A stretch of DNA of 64,000 nt from positions 1 to 64,000 of the forward strand of contig JABGRN010000004.1 in assembly GCA_018648265.1 (NCBI GenBank). The letters run 5' to 3'. Origin of the DNA: Prolixibacteraceae bacterium (GTDB lineage Bacteria > Bacteroidota > Bacteroidia > Bacteroidales > Prolixibacteraceae). Shown here piece after piece: positions 37,071-64,000 of this stretch (position 1 is its first letter; every line of letters begins with the position of its first letter). Both the position numbers and the translations under genes were made by a program. The notes beneath the pieces were generated by a model. It did no database searches. It was not told where the DNA came from and worked only from the letters and a program-made list of their open reading frames with translations.

Positions 37071-38270
37071 ATGGGGAATATAAAGCGTGAAAAATATCTC
37101 GAAAAAATACGTCCTTTTATCAACCAACCACTCATAAAAGTATTAATTGGTCAAAGGAGGGTAGGAAAAAGTTTCTTGTTGAAACAGATTATTGATGAGG
37201 TTCTTTTCATTACGAAAAATGCAAACATCATTTTTATTGATAAAGAAAAGTATGAATTTGACCAAATTCAAAATTATCATCAACTGATAGAATTTGTTAA
37301 AAGCCAGCAGAAGGAAGGCACAAATTATCTGTTTATTGATGAAGTCCAGGAAATTAAAGGATTTGAAAAAGCTTTGAGAAGTTTATTGTCGGATAAAATT
37401 TTTGACATCTACTGCACGGGCAGTAATGCAAATATGCTCTCGACCGACATTGCAACTTTTTTGAGTGGACGCCAAATGGTATTTAAAATATACAGTTTGT
37501 CGTTTACCGAATTCTGTCAGTTTCACAATTACAAACTCAACACCAGCGCGTTAAATAAGTATTTAAAATATGGTGGATTACCTTATTTGATTCACCTCCC
37601 GAAAGATGACTCAATAATTTTCGATTATCTTGATAATATTTATGCAACCATCCTTTTCCGCGACATTGTATCGCGGAATGAAATCAGGGATGTTTCATTT
37701 TTAAACAATTTGTTAAAATTTCTGGCCGATAATACCGGAAGTTTGGTTTCAGCAAAAAAAATATCTGACTATCTAAAATCGCAACAATCTTCTAAATCGG
37801 TTTCAGTTATTTTAAACTACATCACTTACCTTGAAAATGCCTATTTTATTTTTAAAACAAAACGGAAAGATATTCAGGGAAAGAAAATATTTGAAGTTGG
37901 AGAGAAATATTATTTTGAAGATTTTGGCTTGAGGAATTCAGTAATCGGCTACAAAATTAGCGACATAAATAAGATTACTGAAAATGCCGTTTATCTGCAT
38001 TTACTAATTAACGGGTACAAAATCTACATTGGCAAAACAGGCAATAAAGAGATTGATTTTATTGCAGAACGGCAAAATGAAACCCTCTACATTCAGGTTA
38101 CAACCTACCTAAGCGATGAAAAAGTAATTCAGCGCGAATTTGGGAATTTATTGGCAATCCCGGATAATTATCCAAAGCTGGTTGTTTCGCTCGATGAATT
38201 TTCCGGGAACTCGACATACAAAGGAATCCAGCATTTGACTCTGCTGGAGTTTTTATCAGAAAGTATTTAA
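37071..38270 (+). CDS. AAA ATPase with DUF4143 domain (second copy)
   Basis: A 399-residue AAA_14/DUF4143 protein. Walker A is GQRRVGKS (27-34) and Walker B is YLFIDEVQ (86-93). The C-terminal part carries a restriction-endonuclease-like signature (NKEIDFIAER, LYIQVTTYL). It is only distantly related to the ATPase at 22159. The ATG at 37071 is chosen because the promoter lies at 37036-37043. The 3' end overlaps the convergent histidine kinase gene by 4 bp. The function of the family is unknown; its operator-rich upstream region suggests tight control. Confidence 0.86.
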   Translation: MGNIKREKYLEKIRPFINQPLIKVLIGQRRVGKSFLLKQIIDEVLFITKNANIIFIDKEKYEFDQIQNYHQLIEFVKSQQKEGTNYLFIDEVQEIKGFEKALRSLLSDKIFDIYCTGSNANMLSTDIATFLSGRQMVFKIYSLSFTEFCQFHNYKLNTSALNKYLKYGGLPYLIHLPKDDSIIFDYLDNIYATILFRDIVSRNEIRDVSFLNNLLKFLADNTGSLVSAKKISDYLKSQQSSKSVSVILNYITYLENAYFIFKTKRKDIQGKKIFEVGEKYYFEDFGLRNSVIGYKISDINKITENAVYLHLLINGYKIYIGKTGNKEIDFIAERQNETLYIQVTTYLSDEKVIQREFGNLLAIPDNYPKLVVSLDEFSGNSTYKGIQHLTLLEFLSESI

Positions 38271-39619
38271 AAACTTAAAACAGCCATAGTTACTTTTCCT
38301 GGTGTAGAAATTACTTTCAAACTACCACCGTGCATTTGCATAATTTGCCTGGAAAGACTCAACCCAATTCCCGAACCGTTCTCTTTTGTTGTAAAAAACG
38401 GAATGAATATTTTTTCAAGTACATCTTCAGTAATACCGGGGCCATTGTCAATGACCCGAATTTCAGGTCGACCACTTTCCCCAATTCCTGACCAGATTTT
38501 CACTTTCGCATTATTGTTTTCAGCATTTGCCTGAAACGCATTTTTAACCAGATTAATTAACACCTGAGAAATCAACTTCTCGTCGGCCAATATTTCCAGT
38601 TCCTCTGGGTTTACTTCAAAACGAATTTCAATTGATTCAGAGTATTCAAATGATCCGGAAAGGATGTTAATATTTTCAATCAGGGTTTTAGCCAAAAAAT
38701 GCTTCTTTTCGGGCTTGGGAAGCCGTGTTAATTTTCGGTACGAATCCACAAATGAAATCAAGCCTTTGCCTTGTTCCCTGATAACTTCCAATCCACGAAT
38801 AGTAGTTTCTATGGTTTTTTCATTTATTTCTGAAGGGGATTTGATTCCGCCATCAGTGTAGAAATAACGAGCCAAACTCTCCGATAACGATGTAATTGGA
38901 GTTATCGAGTTCATTATTTCATGCATCATCACGCGAATCAGTTTTCGCCATGAATCCAGTTCTTTTTCATCCAACTCATTTTTAATATCCTGTACCGAAA
39001 GCAACATCAACTCTTTTTTTTCAGAAATAAATGAACTCGCTTTAATCAACAATTGAATGGTTCCACTTTCATTATTAAAAGTTACAAGTCCTTGTTCCGA
39101 TGGTTGGATATTTTTAATTGACACGAAAAGTTTGTGATCAATTTTGTCGAGCTGATTTAAGTGAGTCAGCACATCGAGAGATAAAAGTCGTTTTGCCAAT
39201 GAGTTAGAATGTAAAATAAAACCGTTTTTATCGAAGGTTAGTATTCCGGTTGCGGCGTGTTCCATTAATGCCTGAAAATACTGCTCCTGTTGCCGGTTTG
39301 CGATATAAATTTGTTGAATTTGCTTATTTACTTTATTCATGCTTTTATTTAAGTCATGAATTGTTTTATTATTAGTTTTTTCAGGAAACGAGAGTGTTGA
39401 ATCTTCGTTTTTAATGGCATCAAAAAAGTAAAATAGCCGGCGGTTTGTTGTATTCAAAAACCAAACTAAATTTATGGTTTGAATGATAATGGCAATAACC
39501 GGAATAACAGAGATTATGTACATTTCTTTGTGGAAAATCATCCATCCCAGCAAAAGTGCAAGCGCAACCAAAACAAGCACACGTATAAGCAACTGAACGT
39601 ACAGATTTTTACTTATCAT
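38267..39619 (-). CDS. PAS-containing sensor histidine kinase (NtrY-like)
   Basis: A 450-residue membrane histidine kinase. Two membrane helices (about 8-28 and 34-55) enclose only a few periplasmic residues, so it probably senses within or at the membrane, or through its PAS domain (about 112-210). The phosphoacceptor is H233 in MMHEIMNSITP, and the HATPase domain (about 330-450) has NLVKNAFQA, DNGPGI and GSGIGLSLSRQIM. Its ATG overlaps the stop of the sigma-54 activator gene (39616-39619), so the two are translationally coupled partners. They face the pump operon, whose promoters carry sigma-54 elements. Confidence 0.92.
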   Translation of the reverse strand: MISKNLYVQLLIRVLVLVALALLLGWMIFHKEMYIISVIPVIAIIIQTINLVWFLNTTNRRLFYFFDAIKNEDSTLSFPEKTNNKTIHDLNKSMNKVNKQIQQIYIANRQQEQYFQALMEHAATGILTFDKNGFILHSNSLAKRLLSLDVLTHLNQLDKIDHKLFVSIKNIQPSEQGLVTFNNESGTIQLLIKASSFISEKKELMLLSVQDIKNELDEKELDSWRKLIRVMMHEIMNSITPITSLSESLARYFYTDGGIKSPSEINEKTIETTIRGLEVIREQGKGLISFVDSYRKLTRLPKPEKKHFLAKTLIENINILSGSFEYSESIEIRFEVNPEELEILADEKLISQVLINLVKNAFQANAENNNAKVKIWSGIGESGRPEIRVIDNGPGITEDVLEKIFIPFFTTKENGSGIGLSLSRQIMQMHGGSLKVISTPGKVTMAVLSF

Positions 39620-40980
39620 ATTCCGTATTTTTTAATTTTATTGTATAATGTCTGACGAGTAATTCCCAATTGGTCGGCCGCCAAACTCATATTGCCTGTG
39701 CTTTTTTCGATGGCATTAATAATCATCTGCTTTTCCATCTCTTCAATCGTATGATGTTGGTCGTCAAATTTACCAGAAAGAACCGGGCGGAAGAAAAAAT
39801 CTTCTGGCTTCAACACCAATGAATCGCTAAGAATTACAGCCTTTTCTATGGTGTGTTGTAACTCGCGAATATTTCCCGGCCACAAGCATTTTAACAATTT
39901 ATTCTGTGCAGTTTGATTAATTTTCAGGCCATGTTTTTCATATTTAGAAGAATATTTTTTTAGAAAGAAATCGGCCAAAACAATAATATCGTCTCCCCTG
40001 TTTCTCAACGGTGGCACCTCAATTTGAATTGTATTAATACGATACAGAAGATCTTCGCGAAACAAACCTTCACCAACCATTTGTTGCAGGTTTTTATTGG
40101 TTGCACAAACCAGTCGGATATTAACAGGGATTGTTTTATCTGAACCCAAACGCATGAACCGGCGATTCTGAATAGCAGCTAAAAGTTTAGCCTGCAAATG
40201 AAACGAAAGGTTTCCAATTTCATCAAGAAACAAAGTGCCATTATTTGCTGTTTCAAATTTGCCGGCGCGATTTTCCCGTGCATCTGTGAATGCTCCTTTT
40301 ACATGCCCAAAAAGTTCGCTTTCAAACAGGGTTTCACTTACCGCACCCATGTCAACATTTACCATTACTTCATGGCTTCGCAGCGACAACCTATGAATTT
40401 CGCGTGCGATCAACTCTTTACCTGTGCCATTTTCGCCTGTAATTAAAATATTGGCATTAGTTTTTGCCACCTTCCGAACCATATTTAAAACCTTCATCAA
40501 TTGTGGCGACGAACCAATAATATATTTCTGATCGCGATTTAATTCTTGTTTTAACCCTTTCTCTTTTTGTTTCAGTTGACCAAGCTCTTTTTTTGAAAAG
40601 TTAAGTTGAACAGCAGCTTTTACAGTTGCCAGCAACTTGCCGTTTTCCCAAGGTTTTGGAACAAAATCAGTGGCTCCCTGTTTTAAAGCTTTTACCGCCA
40701 ATTCCACGTCGCTGTATGCAGTAATTAATACAACCGAAATATCCGGATTGCTCTTTTTTATCTGGTTGAGCCAGTACAAACCTTCGTTGCCGGTATTTAC
40801 CCCGGCCTGAAAATTCATATCTAAAATAACGAGATTATACTCAATATTTTTTAATTCGGAAGGAATAAGGTTTGGATTTGAAATTCCCTGAATGTGGTCG
40901 AATTCCGGGCCTAAAAATATTTCCAAGGCACTGATAATACTTTTGTTATCGTCAACGATTAAAACATTGCCTTTTGTCAT
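39616..40980 (-). CDS. NtrC-family sigma-54-dependent response regulator
   Basis: A 454-residue bacterial enhancer-binding protein. The receiver domain (about 5-122) has phosphoacceptor D54. The AAA+ domain (about 152-390) has Walker A GENGTGKE (182-189) and the sigma-54 contact loop GAFTDA (229-234), a common variant of GAFTGA. A Fis-type helix-turn-helix (about 412-454; [21 protein letters not shown]) ends the protein. It should oligomerise when phosphorylated by the coupled kinase and drive sigma-54 promoters from upstream sites. The palindromes at 41030 and 41738, each 92 bp before a -24/-12 promoter, are the obvious targets (inference). Confidence 0.95.
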
Positions 40981-40993
40981 CGTATTTTTTATT

Positions 40994-41024
40994 CAAACTT
41001 AAAGGCTTTTAAAATGAAAACCAA
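40994..41024 (-). promoter_or_regulatory. Promoter of the regulator-kinase operon
   Basis: On the minus strand, TTG at 41024-41022 and TAAGTTTG at 41001-40994 are 20 bp apart, the optimal Bacteroidota -33/-7 arrangement, ending 13 bp before the ATG at 40980. The activator's putative site (41030-41046) lies directly upstream of the -33 element, so autoregulation is likely. Confidence 0.65.
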
Positions 41025-41029
41025 TAGTG

Positions 41030-41068
41030 TGTAAAATATTTTTACAGAACTGTGTCAATTATTTTAAC
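41030..41068 (+). promoter_or_regulatory. Upstream activator site 1 (putative enhancer)
   Basis: A 17-bp near-palindrome (41030-41046, TGTAAAATATTTTTACA) is followed 24 bp on, start to start, by a second, weaker dyad (41054-41068). Exactly the same 17-mer recurs at 41738-41754 with the same companion at the same distance. Its position 92 bp upstream of a sigma-54 promoter is typical of an NtrC-type enhancer. Confidence 0.75.
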
Positions 41069-41121
41069 GAAAATAAAATTAAAATATTTGTAATGTCCAT
41101 AAATTCAGATAGTTGGCTTTA

Positions 41122-41137
41122 TGGCATCGTTATGGCA
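41122..41137 (+). promoter_or_regulatory. Sigma-54 (-24/-12) promoter 1
   Basis: TGGCAT, a 5-bp spacer and TGGCA place GG at 41123-41124 and GC at 41135-41136, the required 12-bp periodicity of RpoN promoters (consensus TGGCAC-N5-TTGCA). Transcription would start near 41148, upstream of the small exported protein gene. Fifteen of 16 bases match promoter 2 at 41830. Confidence 0.78.
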
Positions 41138-41260
41138 ATTATTATGGCAAATACGAAAAAGAGAAGTTATGAAACGAGCATGTAAAAGTATTTGCACATA
41201 GGAGAATCATTATCCAGCGAATTCCATCGAATACCTTTAAAAACTAAAAATTACAATGAG

Positions 41261-41599
41261 ATGAAAACAATAAACAAGGTTCAAAAGATAGCACAAAAGA
41301 CAATCGCAGTTGTAGTAAGTATCGTCTTAATAAGTTTTACCGTAAGTGCGCAGGATTTTTGGAAAGAACTCGTTACAACGAATCAGTTTGAACAAATTGC
41401 TTTAGTATTTGCAGATAACACTACGTCATCAAAAAGAGTGTCTTTAAATGAAAACTCTACCCGGGTTTTAGAGTTTTATGAAAAAGCAGTTGAAGAGGAA
41501 TTGGAATTTGAAGAGTGGATGACTTATGAAAATTATTTCCCCGGAAATATAATTCATTTTGAAGAAGAGATTGAAAGTTTCTTGGAACTTGAAAACTGA
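41261..41599 (+). CDS. Small exported acidic protein with LEFExWM motif
   Basis: A 112-residue protein. The signal peptide (basic start, hydrophobic core 14-28) ends at VSAQ, near residue 30. The mature part is acidic and carries LEFEEWM at 81-87, followed by Tyr/Phe residues and a second acidic stretch at the end. The ATG at 41261 is chosen because it starts the signal peptide; a TTG-initiated longer frame from 41192 is not credible. It is the first full gene after sigma-54 promoter 1 and directly abuts a 40-codon ORF sharing the motif. I do not recognise the family. Given its context, a periplasmic stress or signal-modulating protein for the kinase or pump is a guess. Confidence 0.7.
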   Translation: MKTINKVQKIAQKTIAVVVSIVLISFTVSAQDFWKELVTTNQFEQIALVFADNTTSSKRVSLNENSTRVLEFYEKAVEEELEFEEWMTYENYFPGNIIHFEEEIESFLELEN

Positions 41600-41722
41600 A
41601 TGATTAATGACAGCCATTTCAATAAACAGGAAATAAATACAAAAGCCATTTATACAATTGAACAGGAAAAAGGATTGGAATTTGAGAATTGGATGATAGA
41701 AGAAAAAGTGTGGAATTTGTAA
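41600..41722 (+). CDS. 40-residue ORF with LEFExWM motif
   Basis: The ATG at 41600 immediately follows the stop of the previous gene, and the frame runs 40 codons to TAA at 41720-41722. The C-terminal half contains LEFENWM (26-32) followed by acidic residues and Trp, matching the motif at 81-87 of the upstream protein. It has no signal peptide. It may be a small translationally coupled protein or the remnant of a duplicated copy of the upstream gene that has lost its 5' part. Confidence 0.5.
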   Translation: MINDSHFNKQEINTKAIYTIEQEKGLEFENWMIEEKVWNL

Positions 41723-41737
41723 AACCTTAAAACAAGG

Positions 41738-41776
41738 TGTAAAATATTTTTACAAAATTTTGTAAACTATTTTAAC
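41738..41776 (+). promoter_or_regulatory. Upstream activator site 2 (putative enhancer)
   Basis: The 17-mer at 41738-41754 is identical to 41030-41046, and the companion dyad at 41762-41776 differs from its counterpart at only two positions. The distance to the following sigma-54 promoter is again 92 bp, start to start. An AGATAGTT octamer 15 bp before the -24 element (41815-41822) is also conserved with site 1 (41107-41114). Confidence 0.75.
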
Positions 41777-41829
41777 ATCGCTTTCATTTGAAAATAGTCA
41801 ATAACCAAATAATTAGATAGTTACACTTT

Positions 41830-41845
41830 TGGCATCGTTCTGGCA
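41830..41845 (+). promoter_or_regulatory. Sigma-54 (-24/-12) promoter 2, driving the pump operon
   Basis: TGGCAT-N5-TGGCA places GG at 41831-41832 and GC at 41843-41844. The predicted start is near 41856, giving a ~17-nt leader before the TolC-family ATG at 41873. Confidence 0.8.
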
Positions 41846-41872
41846 TAGAAAAACAAAACAAAAAATAAACTA

Positions 41873-43225
41873 ATGCATTTAAAACAATTTATCTCAATTA
41901 TCATATTCACATTCCTGACAGGAAATTCATTGAATGCTCAACAAACCTGGAACTTAAATCAATGTATTTCTTACGCAATAGAAAACAATATAAATTTAAA
42001 AGAATATGAAATTCTGAATAAATTATCTCTGGAAGACTTAAATCAATCGAAAAGGAATCTTTTACCCGGGATTAGCGCCTCAACAAATGCAGGTATTAGT
42101 TATGGCCGTTCAATAGATCCAAATACCAATGATTTTATAAATACAGAATTCTTTAATAATTCTTACAATCTCGGATCTTCAATTGCCGTTTTTGATGGAT
42201 TCCGCTTACAAAATCAAATAAAATATCAAAAATTCAGAAAACAAATATCAGAATACAACCAGTTAAATGCCATCGACGATATAGCATTTAGCGTAATGAC
42301 ATCATTTTTTGACGTAATCTATTATGAGGGAATGCTTGAAATAGCCAAAGAACAGGTTGAAGCCTCGAAGCTAAATTTGAAAACAACAGAAAAACTAACC
42401 GAAGTAGGATTAAAAGCCAAAGCAGATTTATTGGAAATGCGTGCTAATCTGGAAAGTGAAGAACTGAACAGAATTCAGATTGAAAACAACAGAAAAACCG
42501 CACTACTTCGGTTAAAACAACAAATGAATTTTGTGTCGATTGATGAAATGCTATTAACAAATGAACAAAATTCTGTAATTCAAGAATCGATTGAGAATCC
42601 ACAAAGTTTATTCGATCAATTTACTTTGTGGTCGCCTTATTATCAATCTTTTGAAGCCAACTTAAAAGCTACCGAAAAAGGATTGTCAATCAGTCGATCA
42701 AATTTGTACCCTTCAATTTTTGCCAGTGGTTCAATTAATACAAGGTATTCTGAAACCAACACCACTGAATCGGGCAGTATTATTGGATTTAAAGAACAAT
42801 TCCAAAACAATAAAAGTCAATATTTGGGAGCCTCTTTGAGTATCCCTTTATTTAGTAGGTGGGCATACCGATCGAATATTAAAAAGGCAAAATTAGATGT
42901 TGAACGTGCCAAAACTATTCTTGAAAGTGAAAAGCAAAAATTGTTTTTTGAAATGGCAAACGATTTAACCGATTTAGAGGCGCTGAATAAAGAATACAAC
43001 CAATATGTAAAACGAAGCGAAGTTGATAAACTGGCTTTTAAAGCAGCGGAAAAAAAATTTGAGCAGGGTTTGATAAATGTGGTTGAATTTTACATCGCAA
43101 AAAACCGGTTGGCAAATACAAACAGCCAGGTATTACGTGCCCGTCTGCAATGGGAGATTAAAATGAAAACCATTGAGTTTTATAAAGGACAGAGGTTTTG
43201 GGAAACTGAAGAAAGTTTACAGTGA
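41873..43225 (+). CDS. TolC family outer-membrane efflux protein
   Basis: A 450-residue TolC-type protein. A signal peptide ends near residue 22 (SLNAQ). Two long repeats of coiled-coil and beta segments follow, with the typical N-terminal WNLNQCISYAIENN start and repeated LRLKQQMN and VARLRLA-like helices. It should form the trimeric outer-membrane channel of the pump encoded by the next genes. It is the first gene behind sigma-54 promoter 2; the adaptor gene follows after 75 bp. Confidence 0.92.
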   Translation: MHLKQFISIIIFTFLTGNSLNAQQTWNLNQCISYAIENNINLKEYEILNKLSLEDLNQSKRNLLPGISASTNAGISYGRSIDPNTNDFINTEFFNNSYNLGSSIAVFDGFRLQNQIKYQKFRKQISEYNQLNAIDDIAFSVMTSFFDVIYYEGMLEIAKEQVEASKLNLKTTEKLTEVGLKAKADLLEMRANLESEELNRIQIENNRKTALLRLKQQMNFVSIDEMLLTNEQNSVIQESIENPQSLFDQFTLWSPYYQSFEANLKATEKGLSISRSNLYPSIFASGSINTRYSETNTTESGSIIGFKEQFQNNKSQYLGASLSIPLFSRWAYRSNIKKAKLDVERAKTILESEKQKLFFEMANDLTDLEALNKEYNQYVKRSEVDKLAFKAAEKKFEQGLINVVEFYIAKNRLANTNSQVLRARLQWEIKMKTIEFYKGQRFWETEESLQ

Positions 43226-43300: not shown

Positions 43301-44557
43301 ATGGGAATGGATAAAAAAATTGAAAAGAAAAAGGGTTTGAAAATGAAACATATTTTTTGGATTGTTGGTGGATTGGTAATTGCCTTTCTGCTATACAGTG
43401 TAATTTTTTCAGATCACAGTTCTGTATTTCGAGCAGAAAAAGAAAAGCTAACAATCAGTACGGTAGAAGCAAGTTTGTTTAACGATTACATTACTTTAAT
43501 TGGACAAGTTGAGCCAATTTCTACCATCTATCTGGATGTAGAAGAAGGTGGTAAAGTTGAGGAAATTTATATTGAAGAAGGTGAGATGGTAAAAGAAGGT
43601 GATGTGATTCTGAAGTTAAAGAATAACGATTTAAGCACCCAAATTATGAATAGCGAATCGAGCATGGCTTACCAGGCAAATGAACTTCGAAACACCCAAA
43701 TTAAAATGGAACAACAACAAATCAGTAACCGCCGCTCGAAAATGGAGGTTGATTTGCTGGTTACTCAAGCAGAAAGAAAATACAAACAATACAAGGTTTT
43801 GTTTCAGGAAGACCTTGTAGCCAAAGAAGAATACCTGCGCACCAAAGAAGATTACGAGCTCTCATTAAAACAAAAGGATCTTACTTATCAACAGTTTGCA
43901 CAGGATTCCATTTTCCGCTCAAACCAAAAACAATCAATGGACGAGAGTTTGAAAAACATGCGCCAGAATTTGATTATGGCCAAACGCCGGCTGGAGAACT
44001 TAAATGTAAAAGCTCCTGATAATGGTCAATTGGGTTCGTTGGATGCAGAAATTGGAGAATCAATATCTCGTGGTCAGCGGCTTGGCATGCTTCATATTTT
44101 AACCGATTACAAAATTAAAGCCCTCCCCGACGAGCATTACATTGACCGTGTAAGACGCGATTTAAATGCTTCGTTCGATCGTAATGGCGTTGACTACACA
44201 CTTAAAGTAAAAAAGGTTTACCCGGAAGTAAGGGAAGGACAGTTTGAAATAGATATGGTTTTTACCGGACCAAAGCCGGAGAATATAAGAACCGGGCAAA
44301 CCTATCATACCAAACTTGAATTAGGTCAGTCTGCTGAAGCAATTCTAATATCTAAAGGAGGATTCTTTCAAAGTACCGGCGGACAATGGGTTTATGTTTT
44401 AAACGAAAATGAAACCGAAGCTACAAAACGCAGCATCCGCATTGGAAAACAAAACCCGCAGTACTACGAAGTTCTGGAAGGTTTAAATGCTGGCGAAAAA
44501 GTAATTATAAGTAGCTATGATTTGTTTGGAGATAATGATAAAATTGTTTTTAAGTAA
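43301..44557 (+). CDS. Periplasmic adaptor (HlyD/MacA-type membrane fusion protein)
   Basis: A 418-residue adaptor. One N-terminal membrane helix (about 17-36) anchors it. A split lipoyl domain (about 72-112 and 238-265), a long coiled-coil hairpin (about 113-235), a beta-barrel domain (about 270-340) and a membrane-proximal domain follow. It would link the TolC channel to the FtsX-type permeases. Its stop is followed at once by a 7-bp repeat tract and an unrelated four-helix-bundle gene that interrupt the operon before the ATPase gene. Confidence 0.92.
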   Translation: MGMDKKIEKKKGLKMKHIFWIVGGLVIAFLLYSVIFSDHSSVFRAEKEKLTISTVEASLFNDYITLIGQVEPISTIYLDVEEGGKVEEIYIEEGEMVKEGDVILKLKNNDLSTQIMNSESSMAYQANELRNTQIKMEQQQISNRRSKMEVDLLVTQAERKYKQYKVLFQEDLVAKEEYLRTKEDYELSLKQKDLTYQQFAQDSIFRSNQKQSMDESLKNMRQNLIMAKRRLENLNVKAPDNGQLGSLDAEIGESISRGQRLGMLHILTDYKIKALPDEHYIDRVRRDLNASFDRNGVDYTLKVKKVYPEVREGQFEIDMVFTGPKPENIRTGQTYHTKLELGQSAEAILISKGGFFQSTGGQWVYVLNENETEATKRSIRIGKQNPQYYEVLEGLNAGEKVIISSYDLFGDNDKIVFK

Positions 44558-44667: not shown

Positions 44668-45030
44668 ATGGCACGTTTTAGATTTATGGATTTGGAAATT
44701 TGGAAGGAAGCGATTGAATTGAACGACCAATTTTTTGATTTAGCGGATGAACTGGAAAAAGCAAAACATTTTCGGGTAGCAGAGCAACTTCGGGCTGCAT
44801 CATTGAGTATATCAAATAATATTGCCGAAGGTTCAGGTTCTTTCTCAGATAAAGATTTTGCAAACTTCTTAAATTTTGCAAGACGATCAGTCTTTGAAAC
44901 GGTCAACATTTCATTTGTTGCTTATAGACGAAAATTCATCGATGAAGTACAGTTAAATCAGAAGTTAACTGATTTAGATATATTAAGTAGGAAGATTACA
45001 AATCTTAGAAAAGCGATATTAAAGGTATAG
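44668..45030 (+). CDS. Four-helix bundle protein (23S rRNA intervening-sequence/S23 family)
   Basis: A 120-residue all-helical protein. The signatures LEIWKEAIEL, RVAEQLRAASLSISNNIAEGSG and FLNFARRSVFET are diagnostic of the S23/IVP four-helix-bundle family, whose members include proteins encoded in 23S rRNA intervening sequences and the Avd accessory protein of diversity-generating retroelements. No reverse transcriptase or variable repeat is present here. It sits between the adaptor and the ATPase of an export operon, flanked by 7-bp repeat tracts, and looks like an insertion rather than a pump component. Confidence 0.87.
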   Translation: MARFRFMDLEIWKEAIELNDQFFDLADELEKAKHFRVAEQLRAASLSISNNIAEGSGSFSDKDFANFLNFARRSVFETVNISFVAYRRKFIDEVQLNQKLTDLDILSRKITNLRKAILKV

Positions 45031-45207: not shown

Positions 45208-45906
45208 ATGATTAAAACAGTAGAATTAACAAAAGTTTTTCGCACTGAAGAGATTGAAACAAGTGCATTGAACAAAGTAGACCTTCATATTCAGAAGGGA
45301 GAATTTGTAGCTATTATGGGACCATCAGGTTGTGGCAAATCGACCTTGCTGAATATTATTGGCCTGTTGGATAATCCAAGCAACGGTGAATTTTATTTTG
45401 ACGGGCAGGAAGTTGGTCAGCTAAAAGAGCGTAACCGTACATTATTACGTAAAGGAAACATTGGATTTGTATTCCAGAGTTTTAACCTCATTGATGAGTT
45501 GAATGTGTATGAAAATGTTGAGCTTCCTTTAATTTACCTAAAACTGAAAGCCCGTGAGCGCAAAGAAATGGTGGCAAAAGTACTTGAAAGGATGAAAATC
45601 AGCCATCGTAAAAAGCATTTTCCACAACAATTGTCAGGTGGTCAGCAACAACGTGTAGCAATTGCACGTGCAGTAGTTGCCAATCCAAAGCTGATTCTTG
45701 CCGATGAGCCAACGGGTAATCTCGACTCTAAAAACGGATTAGAAGTTATGAACCTGCTTACCGAACTTAACCGGGAAGGAACAACCATTGTAATGGTAAC
45801 GCATTCCATGCACGACTCTGAATTTGCACACCGAGTTGTTAACCTGTTCGATGGACAGATAATAACAGAGGAAGTGAAAAAAGAGATGGGGGAAATATTG
45901 TTGTAG
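45208..45906 (+). CDS. ABC transporter ATP-binding protein (LolD/MacB type)
   Basis: A 232-residue ABC ATPase. Walker A is GPSGCGKST (38-46), the Q-loop lies in FVFQSFN, the signature LSGGQQ is at 142-147 and Walker B/D-loop LADEPTGNLD at 164-173. It is closest in form to the LolD/MacB/BceA class that powers FtsX-type mechanotransmission permeases. It is the only ATPase in the operon, while at least eight permease genes follow, so it probably serves all of them. Confidence 0.95.
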   Translation: MIKTVELTKVFRTEEIETSALNKVDLHIQKGEFVAIMGPSGCGKSTLLNIIGLLDNPSNGEFYFDGQEVGQLKERNRTLLRKGNIGFVFQSFNLIDELNVYENVELPLIYLKLKARERKEMVAKVLERMKISHRKKHFPQQLSGGQQQRVAIARAVVANPKLILADEPTGNLDSKNGLEVMNLLTELNREGTTIVMVTHSMHDSEFAHRVVNLFDGQIITEEVKKEMGEILL

Positions 45907-46040: not shown

Positions 46041-48434
46041 ATGTTTAAAAATTATCTAAAAACCGCCCTCCGAAATCTAATGAGAAACAAGTTTTACTCA
46101 ATGATTAATATTGTTGGGTTGGCAATCGGAATAACAGCATGTATTCTGATAATGTTGTATGTGCAATCGGAGCTAAGCTATGATACATTTCACGAAAAAG
46201 CCGACCGTATTTACCGTGTAAATTTGTATGGTGTATTAAATGATGATGAAATTAATCAGCCACACACCAGTCCTCCACTGGCAAAAGCCATGCAAAATGA
46301 AATTCCGGAGGTTGAAGAGGCCGTTCGCTTAACTTTTGCGCAACCGGTTATCAGACATAATAACGATGTTTTTAATGAAAAAAGGTGGTGTTTTGGCGAT
46401 GCCAATTTTTTCAAAATCTTTTCCGCCTCTTTTATTAACGGCAATCCCGAAAATGCTTTATCACAACCCAATTCGGTGGTTTTAACCGAATCAACCGCTA
46501 TGCGATATTTTGGGAAAGACAATCCAATTGGGCAATTTATTACCTGGGAAAACGACCGCGACTATCAGATTACTGGAGTAATTAAAGATTATCCTGAGAA
46601 TTCACATATTAAGCTTGATTTTCTGGCCTCGATAAAAGGACAGGATATTGACAATAATATGCAGTGGATTCATAATATGGTTTATACCTATATTCTGATT
46701 AAAGAAGGATATACCACGCAGGATGTTGATGCAAAGCTTGAAGGTTTAGTGAAAAAATATGTTGGCCCGGCAATAATGCAACTCATGGGGGTTTCGTTTG
46801 AAGATGCCCTAGCACAAGGTATAAAGTATCGTTGGTATGCACAACCTTTAGGCGAAATTCATTTCGATAGGAATGTGTCGCAAGGGCCTGAACCTTTGGG
46901 TAACAAAAGTTACATGCTAATATTTTCGATTATTGCAATTTTTATACTTGTAATTGCCTGTATCAATTATATGAATATGTCCACTGCCCTTTCTGCTAAT
47001 CGTGCAAAAGAGGTGGGGATAAAAAAATCATTGGGATCAAATAGAAAATCCCTCATTTTGCAATTTTTATCAGAATCTGTTCTTGTTACACTAATTGCCT
47101 TGGCACTTGCACTGATACTCATAACACTTTTGCTTCCAGGATTTAATAATTTAATTGAGAAACAACTTGTTATTAATTACTTCGGCAACTTTAAAGTTAT
47201 ACCATTATTGGTCGCTTTTGGAATTGGAATTGGAATAATTGCAGGTAGTTACCCAGCCTTCTTTTTGGCTTCATTTAATCCGGTAAAGGTTATAAAGGGA
47301 ATAAATAAATCGGAAGGCGGTCATGGAAAATTGCGAAGCGGATTGGTTATTTTTCAATTAATTGTTTCCATTGTACTATTTTCAGGAACCTTTTTTATCA
47401 GTAAACAGCTAAGTTTTCTTCAAAACAAAAACCTTGGTTTTAACAAAGAAAATCTGGTTATAATCAACAAGTCTAATTACCTTGGAAACCAGATGTCATC
47501 TTTCAAAAATGAATTACTTGCTCAGTCAGGTATATTGGAGATTACAAATACTTCCTCAATTCCCGGAAGAATTAATTCAGGCTCAACATTTTTTCATCAT
47601 TCGGTAAACGATTCAAGAGGAATGAATACAATATGGAGCGATTGTGATTTTTTAAAAACATATCAGATAGAATTAACAGAAGGTCGCTTTTTTGAGGAGG
47701 GTAACCAATTCAATGCCAAATCGGTTGTACTTAATGAAACTGCAATTAAACGACTCAATATTGAAGATCCAATTGGCAAAAAAGTTTATCAGGGCAAAAA
47801 AACAGAAGATGAAAGTTTAACTATTATCGGTGTAATGAAAGACTTTCATTGCGAATCGCTGCATCAGGAAATGAGCTCTTTGGTATTGATTAATGGAACT
47901 GGAGAAAACTTAAGTGTAAGAGTTTCGGGAGATATCCAACAGAATCTAAAGATAATTGAACAGACCTGGGATAATTTTACCAATGGTCAAAGTTTAGACT
48001 ATGTGTTTTTCGATGAAGATTTCGGGCGCTTATACAAAGCAGAAGTAAGAACAAGAAAAATAGTTAGCATATTCTCTGCACTGGCAATTCTAATAGCCTG
48101 TTTAGGACTTCTTGCCTTAGCTGCTTTTGTTGCAGAACAACGCACAAAAGAAATAGGGGTAAGAAAAGTAAATGGTGCCAGAATCGGTGAGATTCTGCTT
48201 TCATTAAACCGCAACTTTATGAAATGGGTAGGCATAGCATTTATAATTGCTGTTCCTGGTTCCTGGTATTTATTAAATAACTGGCTTGGAAATTTTGCCT
48301 ACAAAACAAACCTGAGCTGGTGGGTTTTTGCATTGGCTGGAGTAGCAGCACTTTTTGTAACCATGTTAACCGTAACATGGATTAGCTGGAAAGCAGCAAC
48401 AAGGAACCCGGTTGAGGCTTTGAGGTATGAATAG
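46041..48434 (+). CDS. ABC permease 1, FtsX/MacB_PCD type
   Basis: A 797-residue permease with the duplicated layout of the family: helix 1 (about 20-43), a periplasmic MacB_PCD domain (about 45-285), three helices (about 288-312, 335-365, 383-410), then a second helix-PCD-three-helix unit (helix about 430-450, helices from about 672 to the end). The cytoplasmic coupling segments are RAKEVGIKKSLG in the first half and TKEIGVRKVNGA in the second. It is the least typical member at the C-terminus (LFVTMLTVTWISWKAATRNP) although it shares the NPVEALRYE end. Confidence 0.9.
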   Translation: MFKNYLKTALRNLMRNKFYSMINIVGLAIGITACILIMLYVQSELSYDTFHEKADRIYRVNLYGVLNDDEINQPHTSPPLAKAMQNEIPEVEEAVRLTFAQPVIRHNNDVFNEKRWCFGDANFFKIFSASFINGNPENALSQPNSVVLTESTAMRYFGKDNPIGQFITWENDRDYQITGVIKDYPENSHIKLDFLASIKGQDIDNNMQWIHNMVYTYILIKEGYTTQDVDAKLEGLVKKYVGPAIMQLMGVSFEDALAQGIKYRWYAQPLGEIHFDRNVSQGPEPLGNKSYMLIFSIIAIFILVIACINYMNMSTALSANRAKEVGIKKSLGSNRKSLILQFLSESVLVTLIALALALILITLLLPGFNNLIEKQLVINYFGNFKVIPLLVAFGIGIGIIAGSYPAFFLASFNPVKVIKGINKSEGGHGKLRSGLVIFQLIVSIVLFSGTFFISKQLSFLQNKNLGFNKENLVIINKSNYLGNQMSSFKNELLAQSGILEITNTSSIPGRINSGSTFFHHSVNDSRGMNTIWSDCDFLKTYQIELTEGRFFEEGNQFNAKSVVLNETAIKRLNIEDPIGKKVYQGKKTEDESLTIIGVMKDFHCESLHQEMSSLVLINGTGENLSVRVSGDIQQNLKIIEQTWDNFTNGQSLDYVFFDEDFGRLYKAEVRTRKIVSIFSALAILIACLGLLALAAFVAEQRTKEIGVRKVNGARIGEILLSLNRNFMKWVGIAFIIAVPGSWYLLNNWLGNFAYKTNLSWWVFALAGVAALFVTMLTVTWISWKAATRNPVEALRYE

Positions 48435-48459
48435 GTTTCACCAATGAAAACAGAAAGAA

Positions 48460-50847
48460 ATGAAAACTAACATTCGAATCGTAATACGAAACATAATTAG
48501 TTTCAAGTTGTACTCAGGATTAAATATACTAGGACTGGGACTTGGTTTGACAGCTGTATTTTTTATTTTTTTCTGGATTTATAACGAATCCAGTTACGAC
48601 AAGTATAACACCAATTATAATCAAATCTATCAGATAAATTATCAAACAACCGATGATGGTCATCGCTGGTCAACTACACCATCTCCTCTTGCCCCGGCTC
48701 TTGCCGATCATGTAGCTGCTATTGAAACAGTTTCACGGATAAGAAGATGTGCAACCTTTGCATTTAAATCGGGCGAGAATATGTTTCTGGAAGAATATGG
48801 TGCCACTGCCGATCCTGAGTTATTCGATATTTTCACATTTAAGGTACTTAGTGGAAATCCTAAAGAAGCATTAAATACTGTCGAGAATATTGTTGTTACC
48901 GAATCTTTTGCAAAAAGATATTTTGGAAATAAGAGTGCTTTAGACCAACAACTTAATTTAGAAGGCGAAGGAATCGTCACCATTAAAGCGGTAATTGAAG
49001 ACTTGCCTACCAACTCGCATTTAAAATTTGATTACCTATTATCCCATAAGTTTGCAGAGCAATATCGTTTATGTGGTCTTGGTTGGGGCGACCCAAATTT
49101 TTTAACTTATATTAAAGTAACAAAGGAGGCTGACATTACTGATGTTCATAGTGCCATTACTCAGGTTGCGATGCAGAATAAAGTCCCTCAAATATTTTAC
49201 GGCAGTAATATTTTTAACCTGCGTCCTTTGTCCGGTATTTATCTCGACCATGATATACCCAATCGCATTGGTGAAAGTGGGGATAAGAGAAATATACTGA
49301 TTTTCGGAACAGTTGGAATTTTGATTCTTCTATTAGCTTGCATCAATTATATTAACCTATCCATCTCGCTTTTTACAAAACGTCAAAGAAATACATCAAT
49401 ACAAAAAATTTGTGGAGCTTTTAGAACTAACATTTTTGCCAGATACCTAATGGAGACCCTTGTCGTAATTTTAGTTTCATTATTGCTGGCTTTGGTTTTG
49501 GTTTTTATTCTCGAACCGTTATTTGTAAGCGTTGTAGGTAAGTCGGTTAAAATTAACTTTCTCCAACCTGATATTCTTGCATTCATGGCAATCCTGTTGT
49601 TAGGATGCGTACTCCTTTGTGGCGTATATCCTGCATTATTAATTTCAAACATGAATCCGCTAATCCTGGTAGATAAGTTCAGTCTGAGAAAATCGAAAAA
49701 CCGTGGGCTGAAAGTTATGGTGGCTATGCAAAATGTTATTTCAATATTGCTGATTATTTGTACAATCGGTATCCTAAAACAAATGAATTTTGTAAGAAGT
49801 AAGGAATTGGGTTTCGATTCTGAAAAAATTGTTTACGTCAGATTACGCGGTCAGATTCCACAAAAGATTGAAGCAGCTAAACACGAAATTTTAGCGCTGT
49901 CAGGTGTTTCGCAGGTTGCTATGAAAGATTGTCCTCCTTTCGATAGCCGAAATAATACAGTTGGCATAATTTGGAAAGACGAAGGGGAAATAAAAAATAC
50001 CGGTAACAATACCAAAGTGGGTTCTGAAACAACACGTATTGATGATGAATATTTCAAGATGACTGGAGTTGAGTTTGCACAAGGGCGAAATTTCGACAAA
50101 ACGATTTCTTCAGATAAGAAAAATTACATTTTGAATGAAGAGGCTGTTCGGCAAATGAGACTGGCAGACCCTATTGGAGCAGAGTTTGCTTTGTACGGAC
50201 GTTGGGGAACTATTATTGGAGTGATCAAGGATACGCATTTTAAATCATTACATCAGAAGGTTGAACCTCAAGTGTATTGGATGTTCCAAGACCTTGAAAA
50301 AGAAAGTTATTTCAGTGTGTTAAACATTAAGCTTTCGGGCGAGGAATTCCAAAAAACAATTATGGAGGTTGAAAATATCTGGATAAAATTTAATCCCGGA
50401 ATTCCATTTTCGTACCATTTTTTAGATGAGAAATACGAAGCACTTTATGTAGCAGACAAGCAAGTTGCTGGTATGGTGAAGATATTCTCGCTGCTTGCAG
50501 TCCTTATAGCATGTCTCGGACTTTTAGGACAGTCGGTATTGGCAACCGAAAACCGAATTAAAGAAATCGGCATCCGAAAAGTAAACGGCGCCAAAATTTC
50601 CGAAATACTTAGCATGCTAAACAAAGACTTTATAAAATGGGTAGCCATAGCATTTGTAATTGCTTCTCCAATTGCTTACTACGCCATGAACCTTTGGCTC
50701 GAAAACTTCGCGTACAAAACAACTTTAAGCTGGTGGATTTTTGCACTGGCTGGAGTACTGGCTTTGGGAATTGCACTTTTAACAGTGAGTTGGCAGAGTT
50801 GGCGGGCTGCTACGAGAAATCCGGTTGAGGCGCTGAGGTATGAATAA
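48460..50847 (+). CDS. ABC permease 2, FtsX/MacB_PCD type
   Basis: A 795-residue paralogue, 25 bp after permease 1. It has the same 1+3+1+3 helix layout with two periplasmic domains. In the first half, the usual basic coupling segment (RxKEVGxKK) is weakened to RQRNTSIQKICG, whereas the second half keeps IKEIGIRKVNGAK. The periplasmic domains differ strongly from those of permease 1, while its last ~52 residues equal those of permeases 3 and 7 except at one position. The next start codon is only 13 bp downstream. Confidence 0.9.
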   Translation: MKTNIRIVIRNIISFKLYSGLNILGLGLGLTAVFFIFFWIYNESSYDKYNTNYNQIYQINYQTTDDGHRWSTTPSPLAPALADHVAAIETVSRIRRCATFAFKSGENMFLEEYGATADPELFDIFTFKVLSGNPKEALNTVENIVVTESFAKRYFGNKSALDQQLNLEGEGIVTIKAVIEDLPTNSHLKFDYLLSHKFAEQYRLCGLGWGDPNFLTYIKVTKEADITDVHSAITQVAMQNKVPQIFYGSNIFNLRPLSGIYLDHDIPNRIGESGDKRNILIFGTVGILILLLACINYINLSISLFTKRQRNTSIQKICGAFRTNIFARYLMETLVVILVSLLLALVLVFILEPLFVSVVGKSVKINFLQPDILAFMAILLLGCVLLCGVYPALLISNMNPLILVDKFSLRKSKNRGLKVMVAMQNVISILLIICTIGILKQMNFVRSKELGFDSEKIVYVRLRGQIPQKIEAAKHEILALSGVSQVAMKDCPPFDSRNNTVGIIWKDEGEIKNTGNNTKVGSETTRIDDEYFKMTGVEFAQGRNFDKTISSDKKNYILNEEAVRQMRLADPIGAEFALYGRWGTIIGVIKDTHFKSLHQKVEPQVYWMFQDLEKESYFSVLNIKLSGEEFQKTIMEVENIWIKFNPGIPFSYHFLDEKYEALYVADKQVAGMVKIFSLLAVLIACLGLLGQSVLATENRIKEIGIRKVNGAKISEILSMLNKDFIKWVAIAFVIASPIAYYAMNLWLENFAYKTTLSWWIFALAGVLALGIALLTVSWQSWRAATRNPVEALRYE

Positions 50848-50860
50848 AAAATAAAAATAA

Positions 50861-53215
50861 ATGAGAAATATACTAAAACCAATATTTAGGAACTTTATTC
50901 GTAAACCTGTTATCAATCTAATCAATCTGTTTGGATTATCAGCAAGTCTTGTATTTGTAATCATCTTGTCCGTTTACTGTTACAGCGAGTTAAGTACTGA
51001 TTCGTATCATAAAAATGGTGAAAGAATTTTTCTTATTGGAAAACCAGGTGCCGGGATGCACACCCCTGCAATTTTAAAAGAAAACATCGATATAAATGTA
51101 CCAGGAGTGGAAACTACAGTAAGAGTTTCAGATACCTAGAATGCTCCTGTTTTTCAGACAGAAGAAGGTTCTCCAATTACTTCGGATTTAATTTTTGCTG
51201 ATCCTGATTTTTTTAATCTTTTCTCATACAAAACTATTGAAGGCGATCTCACAACTGCCCTCAATAATCCAATGTCGGTTGTGATAACCAAAACACTGGC
51301 AAAAAAACTATTCGGAAACGAAATCGCTATAGGGAAAATTATAAAATATAATAACAAAAATATATTGACGGTTTCTGCAGTAATTGAAAAACCCACCGGA
51401 AATTCATTTCTAACTTTTAGTGCGATTACTTCAATCGAAACGCGAAAAATTCTTCAACCAAGCGATGGTGAATTTACAGAGTGGGGCTGGGGTAATTTTC
51501 AGACATTTTTGCTTTTAGATAAAAATTCAAATCCAAAACAAATAGCAGAAATCGTTTTTTCGATATTCCCCGAAGAGCAGCGGAAATGGGTTGAAGAGAT
51601 TAACCTGATTCCTTTAAACAAAATCTACTTTTCTGAATTACAGACTTTTGGGAAGAATTATGTACGAATGGGGGATAAAAACAAAACCTTGATATTATTA
51701 TTTGTAGCCAGTTTAATACTAATTATTGCCCTTGTGAATTTTATTAATATTTCATCTTCGCAATGGACGGAAAAAATAAAACAAACCGGCGTTCTTAAAG
51801 TTCTTGGAGCATCCGGAATTACGATATTCAAAAATGTACTTACTGAATCTTTCCTTGTGTTTTTTTCTGCTGTAATTATTGCTATTATACTTGTTGGAGG
51901 AATTGCACCAATTATTCAAAATTATACGGGTATTGAATTTAGTACCAAACTAATTTCCAGTCCGGCATTCTTTTTGGTTTTATTCATTTCCACAATAATT
52001 TTTAGCACGGTTTTTAGCTTAATTCCGGGTTTGCGCATTTCATCCTCAAAAGCAATTAACAATCTCAAAAAAACAGTTGACCAAAATTCAAATAAATCAT
52101 TTTTACGAAATGGGCTGATTACCCTGCAATATGTAATTTCTATTGTATTGATTTCTTTTACCATCTTGATTTACAAACAAGTTGAATATGGAAGCAAAAA
52201 TCTGGTTTTTAACCAGAAAAATACAATTGCGATAAAACTCACTCAACAGCATAAAAAAGATGTCGTTAAAAAAGAACTTCAGAATTTACCGGGAGTACAA
52301 AATGTATCGTTTACCCAATTTTATCCCGGCAAGCAAGTTTCAAGTTGGGGAACGAAACTGCATTTAAACGGCGAAGAGCAGGAAATAAATTTTGAAACTT
52401 TTAGTGCCGATGCTGAATTCTTTTCAATTCTGAATTTGGAATTGGTAATGGGGCAACTTTTTTCTGACAATTTTTCAAAAGACATGAACAAAGTTGTGGT
52501 TAATGAAACATTTATAAATAAAAACAATTTAGAGAATCCCATTGGCGGTACTTTTGAGATGCAACAGGGGCAGAATAAAACGTATGAAATAATTGGGGTA
52601 ATAAAAGACTTTTATTTTAAATCGGTTGAGAAAACAATTGGCCCGCTTGCAATTATAAATCAGGGGTACGCATCTTATTGCCTTGTAACTATTCAAACTG
52701 CTGATTTTCATTCTCTCTACTCAGCAGTTGAGGAAATTAAAGAAATAACAGCAAAACTCTCTCCTGCATTTCCGGTTGAAACAAGTTTTCTCGATTCAGC
52801 AGTTGAAGGAATGTATGAATCGGAAGTGAAGTTTCGTCGTACGTTTTCGTTGTTTGCCATTAGCGCAATAATTCTTTGTTCCCTGGGAATTCTTACGATG
52901 TCAATTTTTGCCAGCCAGCGCAGAATAAAGGAAATTGGCATCCGAAAAGTAAACGGCGCCAAAGTATCGGAAATTCTTACCATGCTAAATAAAGACTTTA
53001 TTAAATGGGTAGCAATAGCTTTTGTAGTTGCCAGTCCAATTGCATACTACGCCATGGATAAATGGCTCGAAAACTTTGCCTACAAAACCACTTTGAGTTG
53101 GTGGATTTTTGCCCTGGCAGGAGTGTTGGCTTTGGGAATTGCGTTACTAACCGTTAGTTGGCAGAGTTGGAGAGCTGCTACGAGGAATCCGGTTGAAGCG
53201 CTGAGGTATGAATAG
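50861..53215 (+). pseudogene. ABC permease 3, interrupted by an in-frame TAG
   Basis: The frame starting at ATG 50861 encodes a normal permease N-terminus (helix 1, start of the first periplasmic domain) but meets TAG at codon 93 (51137-51139). The same frame continues without shift to 53215 and supplies the rest of the first domain and the whole second half, 784 residues if read through. The first in-frame ATG afterwards is at 51272. The downstream part is otherwise intact, with the IKEIGIRKVNGAK coupling segment and family C-terminus, so the mutation looks recent. A sequencing error or readthrough cannot be excluded. Its first domain most resembles that of permease 8 (IFADPDFFNLFS shared). 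Confidence 0.88.
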
Positions 53216-53257
53216 CAAAATAGGATTATCAGAAGTGAAAACATTAAATATATTTAA

Positions 53258-55729: not shown

Positions 55730-55796
55730 AACTTAATAGAGATTTTTATAAACTTGAATTAATGGACAGGTACTAATTAATGAGAACGATTAAATT

Positions 55797-58166: not shown

Positions 58167-58167
58167 A

Positions 58168-58324
58168 GCCTCCCCAACCCCTCCCATGGCGGGGCTTTAG
58201 AGACTACCAAACTGGGAGTGCTGTGCTTTTAAGAAATTTAGAGATGAAAAAAGGAAATAACAAATAAGTAGAATCCAAAAGTCCCCTTTAGGGGATTCCA
58301 GCCTGCCGGCTGGCAGGTAGGGGT
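58168..58324. repeat. REP/MITE-like element, copy 2
   Basis: The left end (58168-58200, CCCC-rich, ending GGGGCTTTAG) and right end (58276-58324, AAAGTCCCC...AGGGGT) correspond to the ends of the 45915-46002 element. The right end carries an inserted palindrome CCTGCCGGCTGGCAGG (58302-58317). It occupies most of the 241-bp gap between permeases 5 and 6, the longest in the array; the remaining 58325-58407 is A-rich without features. Confidence 0.7.
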
Positions 58325-58407
58325 GAAGAATAAGTGGGATTATTCGAAATAAGAATATAAAAACAGTTCAGGAAAAACAGACAGAAACAGAATAAAAAAA
58401 AACAGCC

Positions 58408-60816: not shown

Positions 60817-60860
60817 TTATAAAAGCAGAAATAATTTTGAAATAAAAACAAGATTAAACC

Positions 60861-63266: not shown

Positions 63267-63281
63267 CAAAAAAACAACGGT

Positions 63282-64000
63282 ATGAAAAAACTAATATTTA
63301 TTTTTCGGTCACTAAGAAAAAATTTGAGACTTACCCTTATAAATGTTTTTTGCATGGCCTTAGGTCTTGCAGCAGCAGGAGTTATTCTAAGTTTTGTTTA
63401 CCAGGAATTTAATTACGACTCAGAGCATGTAAATTCAGAAACAATATTCCGAATAATTCAAAAAGATGGCGATCAGCAAAGTCCGTATACTTTTGCGCCA
63501 CTAGCCGAAGAACTAAAAGCGAATTTCCCGGAAATCGAAAATACAGTCAGAGTTAGTTTTTTTTACGGATACCTGGCCTGTTCAACATCAGAAAACAAAT
63601 TCAATGAGACCGGGGCTATTTTTGCCGACCCTGATTTTTTTAATCTATTTTCTTTTCCATTAATTAGCGGAAACAGCAAGGACTGCCTACTTTCTCCAAA
63701 CTCAGTTGTTATCTCGCAAAAGGCATCAAAAAAATACTTTGGCAACGAAGATCCTGTTGGGAAAAGTTTCAAAGTTGGCGAGCACAAAGAAATTATTGTA
63801 AGCGGTGTTTTTGAAGATTTTAAATCGAATTCAAATTTTCAGGGCGATTTAGTATTTCCGCTCGAAAAAATTTCAAAACTCACACAAATATGGATTGAAC
63901 CAAGCTGGAAACACGAAAGTGAAATTCATACGTTTGTATTGTTTTCAGATAATACCAACCCTGAGGAAATTTCAAAAAAATGCGAAAATTACATTTCAAA
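63282..64000 (+). CDS. ABC permease 8, N-terminal part (runs off the window)
   Basis: An ATG at 63282, 15 bp after permease 7, opens a frame with no stop to the window end (239 complete codons). It encodes helix 1 (about 18-42) and most of the first MacB_PCD domain, with the family motifs NSVVISQKASKKYFGNEDPVGKS and IFADPDFFNLFS. It resembles permease 3 in this region. The array therefore continues beyond the window. Confidence 0.88.
   Translation, partial: MKKLIFIFRSLRKNLRLTLINVFCMALGLAAAGVILSFVYQEFNYDSEHVNSETIFRIIQKDGDQQSPYTFAPLAEELKANFPEIENTVRVSFFYGYLACSTSENKFNETGAIFADPDFFNLFSFPLISGNSKDCLLSPNSVVISQKASKKYFGNEDPVGKSFKVGEHKEIIVSGVFEDFKSNSNFQGDLVFPLEKISKLTQIWIEPSWKHESEIHTFVLFSDNTNPEEISKKCENYIS

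Follow-up and report, generated by a model that had tools for sequence, protein, structure and literature searches.

Between a two-component regulator gene and a set of exporter genes, this Prolixibacteraceae genome carries two much-alike stretches of regulatory DNA, which raises the question of what reads them and which genes they serve. The window, that is, the whole stretch of DNA analyzed, comprises 64,000 nucleotides from the start of contig JABGRN010000004.1 (here C43). Judging from the sequence, the two stretches, P1 and P2, are very probably two copies of one enhancer-dependent sigma-54 promoter under the adjoining NtrC-type regulator, with a bend made by an HU/IHF-family protein; P2 would serve the exporter and P1 a small secreted-protein gene.

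Layout of the two candidate promoters and their neighbors

The features involved are as follows.

38267-39619, minus strand: histidine kinase with a PAS domain and two predicted membrane helices with nearly no loop between them (hydropathy, profile search)
39616-40980, minus strand: NtrC-type response regulator, the proposed activator, with receiver (PF00072), AAA+ domain with a GAFTDA loop (PF00158, 1.7e-66) and Fis-type HTH (PF02954)
41030-41046, plus strand: P1 distal activator dyad (UAS), TGTAAAATATTTTTACA, consensus TGTMAA-N5-TTKACA, kept in relatives
41053-41069, plus strand: P1 proximal dyad, TGTCAATTATTTTAACG, an imperfect copy with 9/10 consensus positions
41091-41115, plus strand: P1 IHF-like element, including the octamer AGATAGTT (41107-41114); right half 8/9, left half 6/9
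41122-41137, plus strand: P1 -24/-12 promoter TGGCAT-N5-TGGCA, TGGCATCGTTATGGCA, predicted transcription start near 41148
41261-41599, plus strand: small secreted-type protein gene with a signal peptide and one complete LExExWM motif, interrupted by TGA
41738-41754, plus strand: P2 distal activator dyad, TGTAAAATATTTTTACA, identical to that of P1 by sequence match
41761-41777, plus strand: P2 proximal dyad, TGTAAACTATTTTAACA, 10/10 consensus positions
41799-41823, plus strand: P2 IHF-like element, including AGATAGTT at 41815; right half 8/9, left half 7/9
41830-41845, plus strand: P2 -24/-12 promoter, TGGCATCGTTCTGGCA, predicted transcription start near 41856, 17 nt 5' of the TolC ATG
41873-43225, plus strand: TolC-family outer-membrane protein (PF02321, 1.9e-51)
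43301-44557, plus strand: HlyD-type periplasmic adaptor (profile search)
45208-45906, plus strand: ABC ATPase of the MacB/LolD kind (profile search)
46041-63998, plus strand: run of permease-like genes with a shared C-terminal tail, continuing past the window to C43 86540

In both P1 and P2, a pair of 17-bp dyads at a 23-bp pitch is followed by a conserved block and then by TGGCAT-N5-TGGCA, in which the GG-N10-GC and the TGGCAY upstream box of sigma-54 promoters are present. A sequence-only reading had placed two -24/-12 promoters here with 15 of 16 bases identical, and sequence matching confirmed them, together with the identical 17-bp dyads, which start 92 bp before the -24 box in both cases. 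The same reading described an octamer, AGATAGTT, 15 bp before each -24 box, which was found at 41107 and 41815, and a second dyad at +24, an offset that has to be corrected to +23 (41053 and 41761), the 41053 copy matching at only 9/10 positions. The DNA between the elements has diverged as described: the dyads plus -24/-12 boxes of P1 and P2 are identical at 46/50 positions versus 24/58 in the remaining spacer (Fisher p = 2e-8 for this contrast), with 11/17 in the IHF-like block. An overlapping second TGGCA pair within P1 (41133) has an N6 spacing and was set aside.

In the 5.58-Mb genome, the exact 17-mer TGTAAAATATTTTTACA occurs only twice, at 41030 and 41738; with up to three mismatches, it is not enriched genome-wide (120 and 106 occurrences versus 116 and 107 in the reversed control). 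Searching the genome for TGGCAY-N5-TGGCA gave 6 matches, and the four other than P1 and P2 have no dyad of at least 8/10 at 60-139 bp upstream and an IHF-like element of at most 6/9 at the conserved offset. The genome also encodes rpoN (PF04552 on C99, E 2.2e-49). The -12 box, TGGCA and not TTGCW, counts against a sigma-54 promoter.

The genes behind P2 include an outer-membrane factor, an adaptor, a MacB-like ATPase and MacB_PCD/FtsX permeases, the parts of a MacAB-TolC-type tripartite exporter, and DarB, DarC, DarD, MacA and MacB all stay below the NCBIfam equivalog cut-offs that define the MacAB/darobactin exporter proper. The permease run comprises 16 same-strand genes with NPVEALRYE-type tails after one ATPase gene, one of them without an in-frame N-terminus; the MacB_PCD and FtsX domains were checked in the first two of the 16. 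Control of an ABC export operon, proposed earlier for the promoter pair, would apply to P2, which faces the TolC-HlyD-ABC genes, whereas P1 faces the small secreted-protein gene. Between the adaptor and ATPase genes, a small ORF of 120 aa (MARFRFMDLEIWKEAIEL..., 44668-45030) was also observed, which we take to resemble a four-helix-bundle/23S rRNA intervening-sequence protein.

Regulator, dyads and spacing in relatives

The adjacent gene at 39616-40980 encodes, as had been supposed, an NtrC-type activator with receiver, sigma-54 interaction and Fis-HTH domains, so that the interaction domain, the sigma-54 contact loop and the HTH of this family are all present. Seven PF00158 matches were found in the genome, three of them strong (E below 1e-66), and this regulator is among the three. 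Its recognition helix, RQTLYN, goes together with the dyad: among the matches listed, a dyad (at least 9/10, within 1 kb upstream) accompanies 48/53 loci whose regulators have RQTLYN and is absent upstream of the other 5/53, while it is found in 1/26 with other recognition helices and, as a control, in 4/79 reversed upstream sequences. The comparison covers 79 of 81 regulators, two having been dropped for less than 200 nt upstream, and the homologues are not phylogenetically independent, so kinship inflates any p value. This association fits direct recognition of the dyad by the regulator.

The contact loop reads GAFTDA in 65/81 regulators among the matches listed, and the available part of PMC4641369 includes GAFTDA among the variants expected to maintain activity. 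Counting GSFTDA as well, 73/81 of the listed homologues depart from GAFTGA in this way. On the minus strand, 40994-41024 carries TTG-N20-TAAGTTTG, which adjoins the P1 dyads and looks like a housekeeping promoter of the Bacteroidota type that would serve the regulator gene, with the TTG presumably a piece of that promoter. The TAnnTTTG box described in the accessible portion of PMC9723704 was the model for the box at 41001-40994.

What the sequences themselves show is every one of these elements, a geometry that stays fixed from species to species, and the pairing of dyad and recognition helix. Scanning public genomes with the regulator gave 128 loci, of which the best 80 were kept; by their titles, these belong to Draconibacterium and other Prolixibacteraceae, to Marinilabiliales, in a few cases to Flavobacteriaceae, and to more distant groups. 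Close homologues have the same dyad pair with the promoter at 92 or 93 bp. Within the best 80 of 128, 78 loci have at least 200 nt upstream, and the dyad is present in 48 of these 78; TGGCA sought alone gave spacings in 38/78 versus 0 in the reversed control, and these spacings also count the -12 TGGCA. Within 6 kb, 32/48 dyad loci have a TolC-like gene that points away from the regulator, versus 1/30 dyad-less loci of the same set. The 16/48 dyad loci without a TolC-like gene in the examined stretch of up to 6 kb (again among the best 80 of 128) include several that begin with an adaptor gene, some that are cut short and a few without an exporter gene. Several of the more distant homologues have dyads and no recognizable GC at -12.

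An alignment of 32 promoters, namely those of 50 dyad rows that have TGG at 92 or 93 (one spacer base dropped in the nine 93 rows), places most of the information in the two dyads, a block ~62-85 bp after the start of the first dyad and the -24/-12 boxes, the sequence outside these elements being mostly near background. Furthermore, the promoter-plus-dyad pattern, with both boxes required and 31 spacings allowed (77-107 bp), matches 48/140 family genomes versus 0 in the reversed control, and its strict form is without a match in 92/140. All 56/56 matches, in which some promoters count twice, once per dyad, fall at 80-81 (9), 91-93 (43) or 102-103 bp (4), that is, in 11-bp steps of one helical turn. 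As a separate observation, a sister regulator-exporter module shares the dyad consensus at spacings of 81/103 bp, one helical turn off (L173, L175, L177, L181, L182, L184 and L111); most of the 81/103 cases examined belong to it. The regulator of this module is related to the present one, and the TolC or adaptor gene is divergent.

The block before the -24 box

The octamer AGATAGTT is half of an element that fits the published IHF consensus, WATCARNNNNTTR, and stands 19-20 bp upstream of the -24 box; between enhancer and promoter, the match is 8/9 in both P1 and P2, with one mismatch each. We reduced 61 promoter records from the window, the public-genome loci and 30 loci among the listed family-scan matches to 46 at <85% identity. 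The distance from the element to the -24 box is 19 bp for the 38 promoters of the 92/93 class and 20 bp for a second set of 8 (class B: six 81/103 rows and two others). In both sets, the reverse consensus has the same center, which gives TAA-N4-YTGATWATCAR-N4-TTR. The 38 promoters of the 92/93 class score 7.4/9 versus at most 4.4/9 for shuffled spacers with free choice of offset. Adding three sites of this genome at their best-match offsets (ties resolved to the right-most match) gives 49 rows, with a mean of 7.3/9 for the right half and 6.5/9 for the left half, versus a maximum of 4.3 in within-row shuffles; elsewhere in the rows, the maxima are 4.8 (forward) and 5.2 (reverse). In 21/49 promoters, each half scores at least 7/9.

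The CA|R steps of the two halves, which we take to be the kinked steps, are 9 bp apart. IHF-induced bends are two in number and likewise spaced 9 bp, according to the available text of PMC8421141. The genome encodes two HU/IHF-family (PF00216) proteins, one HU-like, on C35, and one with a TARNISKNTTI arm region (candidate IHF-like). We tentatively propose, with less than even confidence, that a homodimer of the TARNISKNT-type protein (C59:4032-4298), and not the heterodimer of proteobacteria, occupies the symmetric TAA-N4-YTGATWATCAR-N4-TTR at the sigma-54 promoters of this exporter family in Bacteroidota; the bend would then lie almost against the -24 box, hence only whole-turn enhancer distances (81, 92 and 103 bp) would occur. 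The five sites of this genome, with left-half scores of 6, 7, 4, 7 and 7 of 9, lend this proposal only partial support. Its standing is lowered because the best reverse half-match lies elsewhere in 4/5 of them, the one at the symmetric place being 112091.

The block may instead be a contact site for the RNA polymerase alpha subunit or a second regulator, with no IHF-type bending, a reading that we find somewhat doubtful and still consider a serious contender. It is in keeping with the less conserved left half, with the symmetric reverse match being best in just 1/5 own-genome sites, and with the presence of two HU/IHF-family genes in which the IHF identity of either is that of a candidate. The E. 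coli IHF site described in PMC8421141 also has its consensus on one side only, opposite an A-tract. Against an alpha-subunit or second-regulator contact, however, the block matches WATCARNNNNTTR in each of two promoter classes at a constant offset, and the reverse consensus has the same center, with CA|R steps spaced as IHF bends are.

Proposed control circuit, further sites and known systems

As to what binds and bends the DNA, where transcription starts, how far the operon extends, and what the signal and substrate are, we infer the following. The kinase at 38267-39619 would sense a membrane-associated signal and phosphorylate the regulator at 39616-40980, which would bind the two tandem dyads, whose centers are 23 bp, or about two turns, apart. 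An HU/IHF-family protein at WATCAR-N4-TTR, just upstream of the -24 box, may shape the DNA between enhancer and polymerase, and the AAA+ ring would open the sigma-54 polymerase sitting on TGGCAT-N5-TGGCA. P2 would drive the TolC, HlyD and ABC ATPase genes and probably also the permease genes behind, and P1 the small secreted-protein gene. Candidates for the signal or substrate, on the model of MacAB and Bce-type systems, are envelope stress and antimicrobial peptides.

A TGTAAA/TGTCAA dyad followed by TGG-N10-GC at 63-93 bp has five matches in the genome, equal to four promoters, versus 0 in the reversed control; all lie on the plus strand of C43, at 41030, 41738 (with 41761), 93233 and 112113. 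Tandem dyads with a pitch of 21-24 occur on C43 at 41030, 41738, 93211, 109476 and 112091, and in 0/20 one-strand Markov simulations. At these five sites, the 70 bp that follow the dyads have their highest-scoring forward IHF-like match 19, 19, 20, 20 and 19 bp upstream of the -24 position, respectively. The sites beyond P1 and P2, 51-71 kb downstream on the same contig, are these.

C43 93211-93329, 109476-109594 and 112091-112196, plus strand: three more tandem-dyad sites, each with an IHF-like element (L036, L037), two of them with good -24/-12 boxes

The site at 109476 has a poor -12 box (TTGAG) and would be a weaker fifth promoter. The genes that follow the three sites encode a metallo-beta-lactamase-fold protein, a DUF4386 protein, and a CarboxypepD_reg-like protein then an FtsX permease. 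On C43, a matrix derived from relatives picked up P1 and P2 alone; the other three sites were missed, probably owing to their different -12 sequences. TGCCA-N60-90-dyad gave 9 matches, 6 of them on C43 (41030, 41738, 41761, 93233, 109498 and 112113); the three on C12 and C141 were discounted because the GC at -12 is missing. The full -24/-12 scans covered TGTAAA/TGTCAA dyads at 63-93 bp, so that weaker or differently spaced sites could escape. A regulon scattered over the genome was rejected, since these scans found no good sites elsewhere. The earlier proposal of sigma-54 promoters with their own binding site gains support from the conserved spacing, the recognition-helix association, rpoN and the clustering on C43.

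Among the loci examined, two dyad sets around the small secreted-protein gene were seen in four genomes, namely, that of the window, G057, G058 (same sequence as L072) and Gaoshiqia sediminis (L115); loci such as L073-L084 have a single promoter between regulator and exporter, and neither set of L115 has GC at -12. In the window, the TGA at 41597-41599 follows LELEN, where a second LExExWM motif would place Trp, and the frame continues beyond it to 41722 with a further LExExWM motif; the gene is cut by TAA in G058 and intact in G057 and L115. Spacers of the same type agree at 31/58 and 36/58 positions between the window and G058, versus 17-24/58 across types, which is consistent with a duplication of P1 and P2 before these two genomes split. 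The comparison with G057 does not settle the age of that duplication.

These data bear on other accounts of the pair. P1 could be a relic whose gene is decaying, leaving only P2 to matter; stop codons interrupt the small gene in the window and G058, and its position between two dyad sets was seen in only four genomes. We regard this as unlikely, given that the P1 elements are kept (46/50 against P2 and 47/50 against P1 of G058) while the spacer diverges, that uninterrupted copies of the gene exist in G057 and L115, and that P1 could also read through into the TolC operon. It is much less likely still that the dyads chiefly autoregulate the divergent regulator gene and do not activate P1 and P2: although the P1 dyads precede the regulator ATG by ~50-89 bp and stand close to the TAnnTTTG-type box at 41001-40994, those of P2 begin ~758 bp from that ATG, the first being identical and at the same offset to -24/-12, and matching sites stand 51-71 kb away with no further strong PF00158 gene there. 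Recent duplication, or chance in AT-rich DNA, is hardly conceivable as the source of the likeness between P1 and P2, since the combined patterns give zero matches in reversed controls, divergence is concentrated outside the elements and the two-set arrangement is common to other genomes; in its favor are the AT-rich sequence and the frequency of the 17-mer with up to three mismatches, which is about that of the reversed control. Two copies of one enhancer-dependent promoter remain our preferred reading.

Sigma-54 promoters under two-component regulators of the NtrC/ZraR type have tandem UAS, an IHF site and -24/-12 boxes. The present system is like them in its regulator (receiver, AAA+ and Fis-type HTH), tandem dyads, -24/-12 boxes and bend-type site in between. 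It is unlike them in having GAFTDA for GAFTGA, a TGGCA -12 box and a bend-type site that is near-symmetric over the family and centered 19-20 bp upstream of the -24 box, possibly a variant feature. Exporters of the MacAB-TolC, darobactin and Bce types have dedicated two-component systems, and the likeness here lies in the TolC, adaptor, MacB-like ATPase and permeases and in a kinase with almost no predicted periplasmic loop. The differences are the Dar and MacB scores below the NCBIfam cut-offs, the 16 permease-like genes per ATPase gene and the predicted sigma-54 control.

In the available part of PMC12316311, sigma-54 control is described, as first evidence, to be enriched among ABC permease families of Bacteroidia, the FtsX-like permeases included. 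That enrichment is at class level, and the accessible text contains no words beginning "UAS" or "IHF", whereas an activator, a site and a geometry are proposed here. In Flavobacterium psychrophilum, -24/-12 promoters have been mapped, with three PF00158 proteins and an envelope-stress theme (PMC9723704, available sections). The two systems are alike in their Bacteroidota host, three PF00158 proteins and envelope-stress theme; the selected targets named in those sections are chaperones, gliding genes and exported proteins and not the present exporter, and those sections give no activator sites. Because this enrichment and these mapped promoters precede our work, the predicted promoter is a canonical enhancer-dependent one of known kind, and the proposed activator, binding site and short target list are what is newly detailed for this exporter type. 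Among the matches listed in open-licence literature, none deals with this regulator, with its binding site or with a symmetric site of the IHF type in Bacteroidota. The statistical link between sigma-54 and FtsX-like permeases in Bacteroidia thereby becomes a concrete, testable circuit with an activator, a 17-bp site, a geometry and target operons, and the promoter-plus-dyad pattern can be used to annotate the regulator family across relatives. The near-symmetric element is a direct route to asking what plays the part of IHF in Bacteroidota, and 16 permease-like genes behind one switch raise the question of the exporter's substrate.

Most of the 16 permease-like genes have nearly identical last 40 residues (SWWIFALAGVLALGIALLTVSWQSWRAATRNPVEALRYE), which suggests gene conversion; two more permease-like genes lie at 114666-120435. 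The small secreted protein (41261-41722) matches no Pfam or NCBIfam family, and homologues of this LExExWM protein occur in 78/140 family genomes. Two paralogues in this genome have several motif copies each and are followed by a gene that we take to be PadR-like.
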